From an uncultured Selenomonadales bacterium (GTDB lineage: Bacteria; Bacillota; Negativicutes; Acidaminococcales; Acidaminococcaceae), in contig OMWZ01000009.1 of assembly GCA_900314855.1 (NCBI GenBank), positions 1 to 64,000 on the forward strand: 64,000 nt of DNA, in the 5' to 3' direction. Shown here in pieces: positions 47,140 through 56,253 of this stretch. The position numbers and the translations under genes were made by a program. The notes under the pieces are model-generated. The model did no database searches. It was not told where the DNA came from and saw only the letters and a program-made list of their open reading frames with translations. The stretch's first letter is position 1. Each line of letters opens with the position of its first letter.

Positions 47140-47928
47140 TTAACCCAACATGACATCCAATGCCATCATCAGGGTGAAACCGGTCGCAAAAGCCAGTGTC
47201 CCGATGTTGGAATGCTCCCCTTCGGACATTTCGGGAATCAGCTCCTCCACCACCACATACAGCATGGCCCCCGCCGCAAAACTGAGAAAGTACGGCAGAA
47301 ACGGCAGCAGATATTGGATAGCGGCAATCATGGCCACGGCGCTGACAGGTTCCACGACGCCCGACAGGACGCCGTAGACAAAAGACTTGAGCCGCCCCAC
47401 TCCCTCGGCCCTCAAGGGCAGGGAAATGATGGCGCCTTCCGGAAAATTTTGAATGGCGATGCCCAAAGACAGGGACAGGGCCGCTGCCCCGGAAATCGTC
47501 GCATGTCCCGTGGCAAGGCCAGCATACACGACGCCGACAGCCATGCCTTCCGGGATATTGTGCAAGATAACGGCCAGGACCAGCTTGATTGTACGGGACA
47601 ACCCAACGGCCGGGCCTTCCGTTTTGGTACTGTTCAAGTGCAAATGGGGAATGACATGATCCAGGAAGAGAAGAAAAAGGATACCAATCCAAAACCCGAT
47701 GACGGCAGGCACAAAGGCCGGTTGCCCTGAGGCGGCAGCCTGATCCAGAGCCGGAATCAGGAGACTCCAGACGGACGCGGCCACCATCACCCCGGCGGCG
47801 AATCCCGTAAAGATTCGCTGTACCTGACGGTGCAGCGTGCCTCGCAGCAAAAATACGCAGGCCGCGCCGAAAGTAGTTCCCGCGAAGGGAAGAAGAATAC
47901 CTTGGATTACCTCAGGGGACAGGGACAT
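47140..47928 (-). CDS. ZIP family metal transporter
   Basis: Divalent metal (Zn/Fe/Mn) importer. The 262 residues have about eight spans. The metal motifs are HNIPEGMAVGVVYAG in span IV and IQNFPEGAIISLPLRAEG in span V, with HVIPHLHL in the loop before. It matches the GufA/ZupT subgroup. It follows the feoA-feoA-feoB genes in one run and shares their terminator, so iron is a likely substrate; zinc is possible. Confidence 0.9.
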   Translation of the reverse strand: MSLSPEVIQGILLPFAGTTFGAACVFLLRGTLHRQVQRIFTGFAAGVMVAASVWSLLIPALDQAAASGQPAFVPAVIGFWIGILFLLFLDHVIPHLHLNSTKTEGPAVGLSRTIKLVLAVILHNIPEGMAVGVVYAGLATGHATISGAAALSLSLGIAIQNFPEGAIISLPLRAEGVGRLKSFVYGVLSGVVEPVSAVAMIAAIQYLLPFLPYFLSFAAGAMLYVVVEELIPEMSEGEHSNIGTLAFATGFTLMMALDVMLG

Positions 47929-47950: not shown

Positions 47951-48151
47951 TCAGGCATCGCTCGCCTTCTTGTCCTCCAAGGGGGTACGGCCGATGTGAT
48001 AAGGGCAGCCGCCGCCCGAACAACGGCCTGCGGAACACCCGCCCGAACAATGCGGGCAGGAACCGGTGGACAAATTCCGAAGGGCATGACGCAATGCCAG
48101 GATAAAACAAAGGATGATAGCTGCCAGAACGACAGCGGACAGGAAATTCAT
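47951..48151 (-). CDS. FeoB-associated Cys-rich membrane protein
   Basis: A 66-residue protein with one N-terminal span (SAVVLAAIILCFILALRHAL) and a cysteine-rich tail (SCPHCSGGCSAGRCSGGGCP). This type regularly follows feoB in Firmicutes and may pass or sense iron at the pump. Its function is not established. Confidence 0.85.
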   Translation of the reverse strand: MNFLSAVVLAAIILCFILALRHALRNLSTGSCPHCSGGCSAGRCSGGGCPYHIGRTPLEDKKASDA

Positions 48152-48217: not shown

Positions 48218-50362
48218 TCAGTCTGCCTCCTGGAGCTGCGTCTTCCCAATGGGAGCCTTGGGAGCCGGGCGCAGGATAAAGTACAGGGCTGCCGCCACCA
48301 GGACGATTGCCACGGTCTGCGCCACGCCGAAGGGTGCGCCATAGAAGGCCCAGCCGCCCAGGTTATAGACGACGAACGCCAGACCGTATCCGACAAGGAC
48401 CTGGAAAGAGATGGCCAGCGCCGCCCACTTCCTATCCCCCATCTCGCGGGCGGTCGTTGCCATGGCAACGAGGCAAGGCGGGTCAAAGAGATTCAAAATC
48501 ATATAGGTGAACGCCGTAAGGGGCGTAAACATCGCGGCGATGGCCTGGAAAGTTTCGGCTTCGCTGTCCGGGCTGGCCCCGGCCAGGATTCCCAGGGTGC
48601 CGACCGCCTGTTCTTTCGCCATAAAGGCGGAAACGACAGCGACGGCGTTCTGCCAGGAGCCCAACCCGATGGGGGCGAAAATCCAGGCAAAGGCATTGCC
48701 TGCCACCGCCAGCATGGACTCATCGACATTCTCGACCAATTCCAGGCTCGTGTTGAAGGACTGGAGAAACCAAAGGAGGACGCAGACCGAAAAGATAATC
48801 GTGCCGGCCTTGACGATAAACCCTTTAGCGCGTTCCCACATATGAAGGAGGACGCCCTTAAAGGACGGAATATGGTACGCCGGCAATTCCATGACGAAGG
48901 GCGCCGGGTCCCCGGCAAAATAATGGGTCTTTTTCAGGGCAATGCCGCCGAGGATGATAATGGCAATACCCAGAAAGTACATGGCCGGGGCAATAAACAG
49001 GGACCCGGGAAAGAAAATCGTCGTCACCATGGCAATGATTTCCGTCTTCGCGGAGCAGGGAATGAACGTGGACAGCAAGATTGTCATGCGCCGGTCGCGG
49101 GGATTTTCAATCGTACGTGCCGCCATGATGGCCGGTACGCCGCAGCCCGTGCCGATGAGGACCGGGATAAAGGATTTGCCGGACAGGCCAAATTTACGGA
49201 ACACACGGTCCATAATGAAAGCGACACGAGCCATGTACCCGGAATCTTCCAGGAGGGACATGAAAAAGAAAATCAGCAGGATTTGCGGGGCGAAGCCCAG
49301 AACCGTACCGACGCCGCCGAGGATGCCGCCAACGAGGAGGCTCGTCAACCATTCAGGAGCCGCAATGCTTTCCAGGAAACCCGTGGCCGCGTCCGAAACA
49401 ATTTCCCCGAAAAACACGTCGTTCGTCCAATCGGTCATCCAGGCGCCTACGGTAGTGACAGAAATGTAATACATGAGAAACATGAGGAGCGCGAAAATAG
49501 GAAGGGCCAGGAAGCGGTTCGTCACGATGCGGTCGATTTTGTCAGACGTGGTCAGGGCATGCTTTGGCGCCGTTTTGCGGACAAATCTCTCCACCAGCTT
49601 CGCGATGTATTCATAGCGCTGGTTGATGATAATGCTTTCCGCGTCGTCTTCCAATTCCGCTTCGCAGTCCTGGATGTGCAAGTCCAGATGCTGCAGCAAT
49701 TCCGGTGGCAGCCCAAGGGAGGCCGTCGCGTCCCGGTCGCGTTCAAAGAGTTTCACGCTGTACCACCGCAGATTACGGGAATCGACACGATCCGCAATGG
49801 ATTCCTCGATATGGGCCAGGCAATGCTCCACGCTGCCCGTGAAGACATGGGGCAGTTCTTTACCCGGCTTGCGCGCCCTGGCGACCGCCACGGCCGCTTC
49901 TGCCGCTTCTTTGCAGCCTTTGCCCTGAAGGGCGCTGATTTCGCAGACGGGACAGCCCAGCGCCGCGGACAATTTGCGGATGTCGATAACGTCTCCCTTC
50001 GCTTTCACCAAATCCATCATATTGACGGCGAGGACGACGGGGAGCCCCACTTCAATCAGCTGTGTCGTCAGATACAGGTTGCGTTCGATGTTAGTGCCAT
50101 CGATGATGTTCAGGATCACATCGGGCCTTTCCTGTACCAGATACCGGCGCGACACTTTCTCTTCCAACGTGTAGGGGGATAACGAATAAATGCCGGGTAA
50201 GTCCTGGATGATGACATCCTGGTGGCCTTTCAGGCGGCCTTCCTTCTTTTCCACCGTGACACCGGGCCAGTTGCCGACATACTGGCTGCTGCCTGTCAGC
50301 TCATTGAACAAGGTCGTTTTCCCGCAGTTCGGGTTGCCCGCCAGGGCGATTTTCAAATCCAT
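48218..50362 (-). CDS. feoB: Ferrous iron transporter FeoB
   Basis: Inner-membrane Fe2+ transporter with an N-terminal G domain. The 714 residues show G1 GNPNCGKTTLFNELTG, switch region QYVGNWPGVTVEKKEG, G3 DLPGIYSL, G4 NMMD, then a transmembrane part with two gate regions (GVPAIMAARTIENPRDRRMT, FIPCSAKTEI, PPCLVAMATTAREMG). Upstream are two feoA genes, downstream the Cys-rich protein. Confidence 0.97.
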   Translation of the reverse strand: MDLKIALAGNPNCGKTTLFNELTGSSQYVGNWPGVTVEKKEGRLKGHQDVIIQDLPGIYSLSPYTLEEKVSRRYLVQERPDVILNIIDGTNIERNLYLTTQLIEVGLPVVLAVNMMDLVKAKGDVIDIRKLSAALGCPVCEISALQGKGCKEAAEAAVAVARARKPGKELPHVFTGSVEHCLAHIEESIADRVDSRNLRWYSVKLFERDRDATASLGLPPELLQHLDLHIQDCEAELEDDAESIIINQRYEYIAKLVERFVRKTAPKHALTTSDKIDRIVTNRFLALPIFALLMFLMYYISVTTVGAWMTDWTNDVFFGEIVSDAATGFLESIAAPEWLTSLLVGGILGGVGTVLGFAPQILLIFFFMSLLEDSGYMARVAFIMDRVFRKFGLSGKSFIPVLIGTGCGVPAIMAARTIENPRDRRMTILLSTFIPCSAKTEIIAMVTTIFFPGSLFIAPAMYFLGIAIIILGGIALKKTHYFAGDPAPFVMELPAYHIPSFKGVLLHMWERAKGFIVKAGTIIFSVCVLLWFLQSFNTSLELVENVDESMLAVAGNAFAWIFAPIGLGSWQNAVAVVSAFMAKEQAVGTLGILAGASPDSEAETFQAIAAMFTPLTAFTYMILNLFDPPCLVAMATTAREMGDRKWAALAISFQVLVGYGLAFVVYNLGGWAFYGAPFGVAQTVAIVLVAAALYFILRPAPKAPIGKTQLQEAD

Positions 50363-50437: not shown

Positions 50438-50662
50438 TTACAGGGCTTCCACTTCGATGGTCGCCGCCTCGTTTTTCCGGACGGACAAATCGTACCCCCG
50501 CACGTTCAGTTCCATCGGGTCTCCCAGTGGCGCAATCTTCACCACTTTAATTTCCGTTCCCTTGGTAATGCCCATGTCCATAATACGGCGTTTCAGCGCG
50601 CCCATTCCATGAAGGCGCACGACCTTGCAAAGGCCGCCGATAGCAATCTCGTTCAGTGTCAT
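50438..50662 (-). CDS. feoA: FeoA domain protein
   Basis: Small SH3-like partner of FeoB. The 74 residues read LCKVVRLHGMGALKRRIMDM, GITKGTEIKVVKIAPLGDPM and ELNVRGYDLSVRKNEA, the full FeoA core. The start follows GGAGTGGAAC; the longer frame overlaps the upstream feoA region and is not used. Confidence 0.95.
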   Translation of the reverse strand: MTLNEIAIGGLCKVVRLHGMGALKRRIMDMGITKGTEIKVVKIAPLGDPMELNVRGYDLSVRKNEAATIEVEAL

Positions 50663-50691
50663 GTTCCACTCCTTCCTGCTCCCTGCGGGAC

Positions 50692-50904
50692 TCAATACAG
50701 GATGCGGCGTGCCATCGCTTCCCCGATGCCGACGCGGCTGTCCCTCACATTAAGGATCATATTGCCGGCCAAATGGCTGACTACGGTGACCTTCGCATCC
50801 ACGGTAAAGCCCATTTCCGCCAAATGCTGCCGCACCTGGTCATTGCCGGTGATTTTTCGGATGACGACCGTCTCGCCAACCTCCGCCATCATCAAAGGTA
50901 TCAA
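50692..50904 (-). CDS. Second FeoA domain protein
   Basis: A 70-residue FeoA-like protein: VGETVVIRKITGNDQVRQHL, AEMGFTVDAKVTVVSHLAGN and MILNVRDSRVGIGEAMARRI. TTG 50904 is the best start, behind GGAGGTGAT; a GTG further upstream lies inside the ribosome-binding site. First gene of the feo run, followed by a diverged feoA. Two tandem FeoA proteins are common in Firmicute feo operons. Confidence 0.9.
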   Translation of the reverse strand: MIPLMMAEVGETVVIRKITGNDQVRQHLAEMGFTVDAKVTVVSHLAGNMILNVRDSRVGIGEAMARRILY

Positions 50905-50926
50905 GCTTATCACCTCCCACAGGATG

Positions 50927-50956
50927 ATTATTAGCTTGCGCTAACTATGCCTTCAA
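50927..50956 (-). promoter_or_regulatory. Second feo promoter with a DtxR-like dyad
   Basis: TTGAAG (50951-50956), then AATAAT after 18 bases, just upstream of the first feoA. The dyad TTAGC-N4-GCTAA (50931-50944) covers the spacer and touches the -10. It resembles DtxR/IdeR-type half-sites. Confidence 0.5.
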
Positions 50957-50991
50957 AAAAAACAGGCCCACAGGGGCCTCTTCGTTGAGGC
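50955..50991 (-). terminator. Leader terminator with an overlapping alternative hairpin in the feo leader
   Basis: The minus strand has AGGCCC-CTGT-GGGCCT followed by G and eight T, a clear intrinsic terminator. Immediately upstream GCCTC-AACGAA-GAGGC shares the bases AGGC, so the two hairpins exclude each other, like a terminator/antiterminator pair. It lies between two promoters and before feoA. Confidence 0.65.
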
Positions 50992-51001
50992 GTATTTTTA
51001 A

Positions 51002-51017
51002 GTTAGTTATTACTAAC
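51002..51017 (-). promoter_or_regulatory. DtxR-like dyad just downstream of the first feo promoter
   Basis: GTTAGT-N4-ACTAAC, a perfect 6-bp dyad that falls at about +9 to +24 of the upstream promoter. It matches the second dyad in the TTAG...CTAA half-site pattern. Confidence 0.55.
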
Positions 51018-51032
51018 CCATTTCATTTTTAC

Positions 51033-51061
51033 AATTTAGCATTGCTTTGCTGTTTTGTCAA
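51033..51061 (-). promoter_or_regulatory. First feo promoter
   Basis: TTGACA (51056-51061), 17 bases, TAAATT on the minus strand. It lies about 130 bases before the first feoA, leaving a leader with the dyad and terminator above. Confidence 0.6.
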
Positions 51062-54570: not shown

Positions 54571-56193
54571 TCAATCAATTTTGCCGATGAAGCGGTAGAA
54601 GATTTCTACCTCCTGTTCCCGGCTTCCGTCTTCGTTCTTGACCGCCTCATGGACAAGGATTTTTTCAATCAGCGTGTTCAAGAGTTCAGCGGTGAGTTCC
54701 GTGGGATTGACGCACTCTTTCATCAAGGCAATCCATTTTTCTGCGTCTGCGGCACTCTGGCTTTCAGCGGCAATAGCAGATTGAAGCTGTTCAATCTTTT
54801 CTTCCAGTTCCGCCTGTTCGCTTTGGTACTTCCCGGACAGCATATTGAAGTTGTATTCTGTGATACGCCCCGCCGCCCAGTCCTCATACATCCGGGCAAA
54901 CAGGGTATCGACCTCGGCTTTCCGCTTCTCCGCTTTTTTCAGTTCAGCAGCCTGTTTTTTTCTTGCGGCGGCCTGTCCTTTGTCATTGGCGTTCAGCAGC
55001 CGTTTCAAAAGCTGTTCTTCATCGTGCTGTACCAGCGCCGACCAGTATTGCAGACGGGAGAGGACATAGGCGTAAAGCACATCATAGCGGATGTAGTGCA
55101 TGGAGCATTGGCGTGTGCCTTGCCCGTTCTTGCTACAATGGTAGTAGCCATAGGGCTTGCTGTTCTGTCTGTTCTCCCCGTAGGCCAGCGACCAGCCGCA
55201 GTCCGCACACTTTATCAGCCCCGCAAAAATCTGTGTCGTGCCATTCTTGCGCTCCCTCCGGCGGCTTGCGATCTGCTCCTGTACCTGCCGGAAAACCTGT
55301 TCGCTGATAATCGGCTCCTGCGTGTTCTCCACCCGCACCCATTCGCTTTGGGGCTTGCGTATCCTCCGCTTGTTCTTAAAGGAAATATTGGTCTCCCGGT
55401 AGTGGATGGTATGGCCGATGTAGGTTTCATCTTTCATAATGCTTTTGACCTGCGCTATCGTCCATGCGTAGCCTTTTTCCTCTGGTGCGCCAGCATAGAT
55501 ATTGGCGAAAGTCCCGTCACGCTGGAAGTTGATAAATCCCGGCGTCGGTACTTTTTCCGCAATCAATATCCTTGTAATGCTGGCCGCCCCTTTGCCGTGA
55601 ATAGCAAGGTCAAAAATCTTCTCCACGATCCAGCGGGTTTCCTCGTCGATTATCAGCTTGTTCTTGATTTCCGGGTGCTTCTTGTACCCGAGGGGAGCAT
55701 AGGCGCTGATACGCTGTCCGGCGGCAAACTTTGCCTTGAAAGCAGTTTTTACCTTGCGGCTGGTGTCCTTTGCGAACCATTCGTTGAACAGGTTTTTGAA
55801 TGGCACAAAATCGGACAGTCCCTTTTCTGTGTCCTCATTCTCCGCAACGGCGATGTACCGCACCCGTTTTTCCGGGAACAGAAATTCCAGATAGTAGTCC
55901 ATCATCACATGCTCCCGCCCGAAACGGGACAGGTCTTTGGTGACAATGCAGTTTACTTTTCCGGCTTCCACATCGTCCATCATGCGCTGGAAACTCGGAC
56001 GCTCGAAGTTTGTCCCACTCCACCCATCGTCCACATATTCTCCGACCACATGAAGCCCCTGCTCCCTTGCGTACTGTTGCAGGATTGTCCGCTGCGTTTC
56101 AATGCTTACGCTGTCACCATAGCTTTCATCGTCACGGCTTAACCGCATATAAAGAGCCGTGTTGTAAATGGTAGTATTGTAAGGTTGTTTCAC
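54571..56193 (-). CDS. Large serine recombinase
   Basis: Catalyses integration and excision of the element. The 540 residues show the resolvase N-domain with the catalytic Ser in ALYMRLSRDDE and the Arg in TKDLSRFGREHVMM, the recombinase domain (APLGYKKHPEIKNKLIIDEE), a zinc-ribbon (IKCADCGWSLAYGE and YYHCSKNGQGTRQC), a coiled coil and a C-terminal DUF4368-like end. GTG 56193 follows AAGGAGGAT; the upstream frame is unsupported. Group of TndX/TnpX-type recombinases. Confidence 0.92.
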   Translation of the reverse strand: MKQPYNTTIYNTALYMRLSRDDESYGDSVSIETQRTILQQYAREQGLHVVGEYVDDGWSGTNFERPSFQRMMDDVEAGKVNCIVTKDLSRFGREHVMMDYYLEFLFPEKRVRYIAVAENEDTEKGLSDFVPFKNLFNEWFAKDTSRKVKTAFKAKFAAGQRISAYAPLGYKKHPEIKNKLIIDEETRWIVEKIFDLAIHGKGAASITRILIAEKVPTPGFINFQRDGTFANIYAGAPEEKGYAWTIAQVKSIMKDETYIGHTIHYRETNISFKNKRRIRKPQSEWVRVENTQEPIISEQVFRQVQEQIASRRRERKNGTTQIFAGLIKCADCGWSLAYGENRQNSKPYGYYHCSKNGQGTRQCSMHYIRYDVLYAYVLSRLQYWSALVQHDEEQLLKRLLNANDKGQAAARKKQAAELKKAEKRKAEVDTLFARMYEDWAAGRITEYNFNMLSGKYQSEQAELEEKIEQLQSAIAAESQSAADAEKWIALMKECVNPTELTAELLNTLIEKILVHEAVKNEDGSREQEVEIFYRFIGKID

Positions 56194-56253
56194 CGTAAAA
56201 ATCCTCCTTCTAAAGAAACAACCCACGCTTACAATACTTTTGCTCTATGGCAA

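Follow-up and report, generated by a model that had tools for sequence, protein, structure and literature searches.

The feo leader of this genome raises the question why an operon that has an operator in its first transcribed bases should have, further downstream and still ahead of its first gene, a terminator-like element and a second operator. The window (the whole stretch of 64,000 nucleotides that was analysed) comes from an Acidaminococcaceae genome of a Succiniclasticum-like genus, which holds Succiniclasticum genomes; the assembly comprises 1.83 Mb and is 89.5% complete. The leader lies on the minus strand, as do all features of the leader and the operon located below, 5' of feoA1 (50692..50904), feoA2 (50438..50695) and feoB (714 aa, 48218..50362). 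According to the alignment with relatives feoA1 probably starts with TTG at 50904. Downstream of feoB follow a gene for a small Cys-rich membrane protein (47951..48151, by inspection) and one for a ZIP-type metal transporter (47140..47928), homologs of which are found elsewhere in the genus with a terminator-operator module of their own (L155, L157). A large serine recombinase gene of 551 aa (54571-56226) near the feo region possibly marks the edge of an integrated element.

In the order of transcription the leader consists of the mscL terminator, promoter P1, operator 1, a small hairpin, an overlapping terminator stem with a T8 tract, 10 nt of spacer, operator 2, the ribosome-binding site and the TTG start. 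All strings quoted by the first-pass annotation were found on the minus strand where it had placed them, and promoter-like as well as terminator-like sites are locally more frequent than in shuffled sequences. P1, TTGACA-17-TAAATT, occupies 51033..51061. Operator 1, GTTAGTAATAACTAAC (51002..51017), is a DtxR-type dyad, GTTAGT-N4-ACTAAC, in the first transcribed bases; it had been described as lying right after P1, which is worded loosely, as the dyad is present but starts 15 nt past the -10 element. All 11 leaders of the genus have a perfect TTGACA-17 and a -10 element, with an operator starting 3-16 nt past the latter, and more distant relatives show either the same arrangement or an operator over the -10 element. 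Operator 2, TTAGCGCAAGCTAA (50931..50944), is the dyad TTAGC-N4-GCTAA and is conserved too.

Of the two promoters that had been proposed for this leader, P1 is conserved together with its dyad and P2 is most probably none. The P2 match, TTGAAG-18-AATAAT (50927..50956), scores 9 of 12 in the window, which is what speaks for two independent promoters with an operator each and a terminator in between that keeps P1 transcripts from entering feo. Its -35 element is the end of the T8 tract, however, and its -10 element overlaps operator 2. No comparable match was found in the leaders of the relatives, whereas U tract and operator 2 are conserved there, and it would make little sense to repress a promoter from which no transcript reaches the operon. 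We therefore rejected P2, which is very probably a by-product of U tract and operator, and the two-promoter arrangement appears very improbable.

Which protein should recognize the dyads? In the window the pattern TTAG-N6-CTAA occurs twice, both times in the feo leader, with 0.22 sites expected, and the whole genome contains only six such sites including these two. The genome-wide total is not above that of a reversed-pattern control, so that the signal is carried by the position of the sites and not by their number. At least one dyad was identified upstream of 40 of 42 main feo operons, with 77 sites in all against 0.96 in shuffles. None was found upstream of 11 second feoB copies or, small as that number is, upstream of feo in the three genomes without DtxR (genus g15; loci L187, L188 and L189 of genomes G027, G037 and G042, a DtxR ortholog was not detectable in this genus of the family, and its feo genes are not preceded by operators). 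The second, diverged feoB of the window's genome (G000:C6:89943-91961), which shows 42% identity and one internal stop in the match, lacks DtxR-type operators upstream. Two Veillonellaceae leaders (L011, L019) are without dyads and contain by eye a Fur-box-like sequence.

Dyads at other metal genes, which the first-pass annotation had proposed to look for, were found at flavodoxin, ahpC and other iron genes. The list of the regulon, which was built from pattern searches and with genes named from their translations by inspection, comprises sites upstream of flavodoxin, ahpC, TonB receptor, ZIP, DUF3793, OmpM and peptidase-like genes. In the window's genome, the sites L180:1803, L179:883 and L181:1824 lie upstream of an OmpM-like porin, flavodoxin and ahpC, respectively, and the first of them is preceded at 9 nt by a U tract. 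We regard a site inside the coding sequence of a TonB receptor (L006) as a chance match. Two further ideas were dropped: a fixed helical phasing between tandem dyads, as spacings range from 25 to 75 bp, and an autoregulation of dtxR, as its own upstream region is without a dyad except where it shares the intergenic region with feo.

The DtxR-family protein on which the proposed regulation depends is indeed encoded in the genome, as a single copy (G000:C6:25479-25856; PF02742, E 8.9e-17; PF01325, E 3.6e-13). It is short, and its relatives in the PDB are MntR and IdeR. By inspection of the translation, dtxR (L078, G000:C6) is followed by a gene for a secreted CbiK-like chelatase. Among 36 DtxR orthologs His78, Cys101, Glu104 and His105 are invariant; the position of DtxR Cys102 (MntR Glu99) is Cys in 36 of 36, and that of Met10/Asp8 is Asn in 35 of 36. 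Iron is favoured over manganese as the signal, though not proven, by this invariant DtxR-type Cys ligand. For one IdeR dimer a 14-bp single-dimer site, TTAGGNNNNCCTAA, has been described (PMC8464063). The dyads studied here fit that size, and the protein is likewise a family member with the Cys-Glu-His ligands of DtxR. In contrast to DtxR and IdeR, the core TTAG(C)-N4-(G)CTAA comes without a second overlapping dimer site, the regulator has no SH3-like domain and carries Asn at the Met10 ligand position, and the operators often lie inside the transcribed leader.

That the dyads are bound by another regulator, be it a Fur-family protein or an unrelated factor, is hardly to be expected. The assembly is incomplete and two Fur-family proteins exist in the genome; both are, however, closest to PerR, one of them reaching the NCBIfam PerR cut-off, and a classical Fur was not found in this 89.5% complete assembly. 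Moreover, genus g15 lacks both the sites and DtxR, and dtxR adjoins feo in six relatives with the dyads in the intergenic space. Predicted control of feo by a DtxR/MntR-type protein rather than by Fur, as first suggested from the dyads, is thus strongly supported by the conservation of the operators, their co-occurrence with the regulator, the neighbourhood of dtxR and feo, the other genes of the regulon and the absence of a classical Fur. In this family of gut and rumen bacteria the iron regulon would then belong to a regulator of the DtxR type and not to Fur. A literature search covering papers open without subscription found none that links DtxR and Acidaminococcus.

The element between the two operators (50955..50979) consists of a 6-bp GC-rich stem, AGGCCC-N4-GGGCCT (50979-50964), a G and the T8 tract (50962-50955). 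With its stem directly before the U tract it has the form of an intrinsic terminator, at -10.1 kcal/mol. In 10 of the 11 genus leaders a terminator-like stem and its U tract lie between operator 1 and an operator further downstream (mean in shuffled sequences 1.1, maximum 4). The stems themselves come from unrelated sources: in the window the stem is GC-rich, in the two closest species it is formed by the middle operator itself, and in the Succiniclasticum group operator 1 serves as its 5' arm. They are weak, -4 to -10 kcal/mol versus -27 kcal/mol for the mscL terminator, as a conditional element should be. It had been considered that the hairpins simply protect feoA from upstream transcripts; this is unlikely to be their main role, because the leader terminator lies downstream of P1 and mscL has its own strong terminator (51211-51181).

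A possible attenuation had also been suggested, and of this idea the conserved leader terminator stands, while the scheme of alternative hairpins does not. In classical attenuation the small hairpin GCCTC-N6-GAGGC (50976..50991, -7.3 kcal/mol) would act as an antiterminator competing with AGGCCC/GGGCCT, the outcome being set by a protein, a ribosome or a ligand. The two hairpins are in fact mutually exclusive, and the 5' one would form first and be replaced once the terminator stem is complete. However, the small hairpin is peculiar to the window and absent from the leaders of its closest relatives, where no conserved antiterminator was found; an Rfam scan of the feo leader gave no match, and inspection revealed no conserved leader peptide. 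We consider this explanation quite improbable. As in attenuators and metal riboswitches a leader terminator would decide on expression, but here there is no conserved alternative fold and no Rfam match, and the signal would act via a DNA-bound protein.

The constant feature of the leaders is instead a U tract, 9-12 nt and an operator. In the window the spacer between U tract and operator 2 measures 10 nt (50945..50954), and in all 11 genus leaders the distance is 9-11 nt. A wider test covered both orientations of 119 non-redundant operators from Negativicutes loci, near-identical contexts being merged; as a U tract we counted at least four consecutive T no more than 25 nt away from the operator. 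A T run was present in 82 orientations, and 47 of these runs end 9-12 nt upstream of the operator compared to 6.3 in shuffles (sd 2.5, maximum 15), a comparison that is in part not independent, since the range was first seen in the feo leaders, which are included in the set, and the genomes are related. When the sites are oriented by gene, the U tract is on the coding strand in 49 cases and in the mirror image in 5. This asymmetry led us to discard the idea that the U tract is part of a symmetric protein site, which would lack a strand bias, and an effect of the tract on transcription is therefore most likely. Of 48 U tracts with this spacing, 29 directly adjoin a stem (10.7 in shuffles, where the maximum is 19), and by the criteria used the other 19 have none. 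Outside the Negativicutes the spacing signal is weaker, with 7 coding and 3 mirror cases.

Operator 2, between P1 and feoA1, is an operator inside a transcribed region, and the same holds for modules within operons. In three loci (L071, L173, L174) a hairpin with T6-T8 between feoA and feoB is followed after 9-10 nt by an operator and then by the ribosome-binding site of feoB. Upstream of the ZIP genes of G001 (L155, L157) a promoter is followed by a terminator, 10-11 nt and the sole operator about 50 nt into the transcript, where bound DtxR, as far as can be judged from the layout of the sites, cannot cover the promoter. Both kinds of modules argue for a control of elongation. Against it speaks that many genes of the regulon have a promoter-proximal operator only.

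From these arrangements we propose that feo is subject to an iron-gated termination via DtxR at the downstream operator, besides ordinary repression at P1, and we give this reading a probability of roughly 0.45. The operon would be iron-repressed under the single DtxR-family regulator of the genome, with transcription starting at P1. Iron-loaded DtxR at operator 1 would hinder initiation or escape, and at operator 2 it would be a roadblock which holds the polymerase with its active site in the U tract of the weak terminator, so that the hairpin releases it. At low iron DtxR would leave the DNA, the polymerase would pass the weak terminator and feoA1-feoA2-feoB would be expressed. DNA is gripped by RNA polymerase 10-20 bp ahead of the active site (PMC9758054); therefore an operator 9-12 nt past the U tract would be struck with the RNA end in or near the tract. 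On the other hand, the polymerase might come to a halt with the U tract still incomplete. Extended to leaders and operon-internal sites across the iron regulon of the Acidaminococcaceae, the proposal makes iron-loaded DtxR a conditional termination factor, whose operators 9-12 nt behind U tracts would switch weak intrinsic terminators on; for this general form we remain tentative and somewhat short of an even bet.

The conserved features of the leader can also be read as ordinary DtxR repression, in which P1 is blocked at operator 1, each downstream operator is a plain roadblock dependent on Mfd, and the terminators act separately as constitutive dampers or insulators. The position of the operator at P1 agrees with this, and roadblocks aided by Mfd are known for CcpA (at sigL), CodY and LacI (PMC4132739, PMC10310618). 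What it leaves unexplained is the strand-specific spacing of 9-12 nt and the fact that terminators in one and the same position were built anew from unrelated stems, and we regard it as unlikely, though by no means negligible. Iron-gated termination would share with the CcpA, CodY and LacI cases that elongating polymerase is halted by a repressor bound to the DNA past the promoter. Unlike in those systems, the putative roadblock here follows a U tract, in most cases one with a terminator stem, at a constant distance, an arrangement that would give release without Mfd, the hairpin replacing it as the release aid. RNA polymerase I, too, is stopped and released where a T-rich stretch has a bound protein, TTF-I or Reb1, about 11 bp behind it. 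The order of T-rich stretch and bound protein is the same as proposed here; that system is, however, eukaryotic, constitutive, located at gene ends and without a hairpin, and there is no homology. Among papers open without subscription none was found on repressor-gated intrinsic terminators. If iron-gated termination is true, a DNA-bound repressor can gate an intrinsic terminator by geometry alone, and attenuation of this kind does without a riboswitch and without an RNA-binding protein. Such gating would also account for operators inside operons and for those far downstream of promoters, and it predicts that the iron response depends on the spacing between U tract and operator.

DtxR-type operators were also found at a conserved RNA gene of about 210 nt, which is present in ten genomes of the genus and comprises a strong TTGACA promoter, covarying stems and a terminator (L140:559-716, plus strand; homologs in L139, L142, L144, L151, L154, L161, L167, L171 and L172). 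It is located outside the window, and a search of the window's own genome with a model of the RNA did not find it. The gene has two operators 33-34 bp apart, the second of which is degenerate in L172, an invariant TGATGATTCCTCTTC stretch and stems with compensatory changes. An Rfam scan of six of the loci gave only tRNA and weak YrlA overlaps and no family match. From these features it looks like an iron-regulated small RNA. Its operator 1 lies inside a hairpin whose outer pairs covary, with 17 cells changed on both sides versus 4.7 in shuffles, a count that includes two feo leaders. In an alignment (A2) that combines operator 1 of the small RNA with that of feo from L049 and L050 the flanks of the operator core form a covarying inverted repeat, and the operator is therefore also the stem of a predicted 5'-terminal RNA hairpin. 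The operators of the ZIP and OmpM genes are flanked by extended palindromes as well, which are of other sequence.
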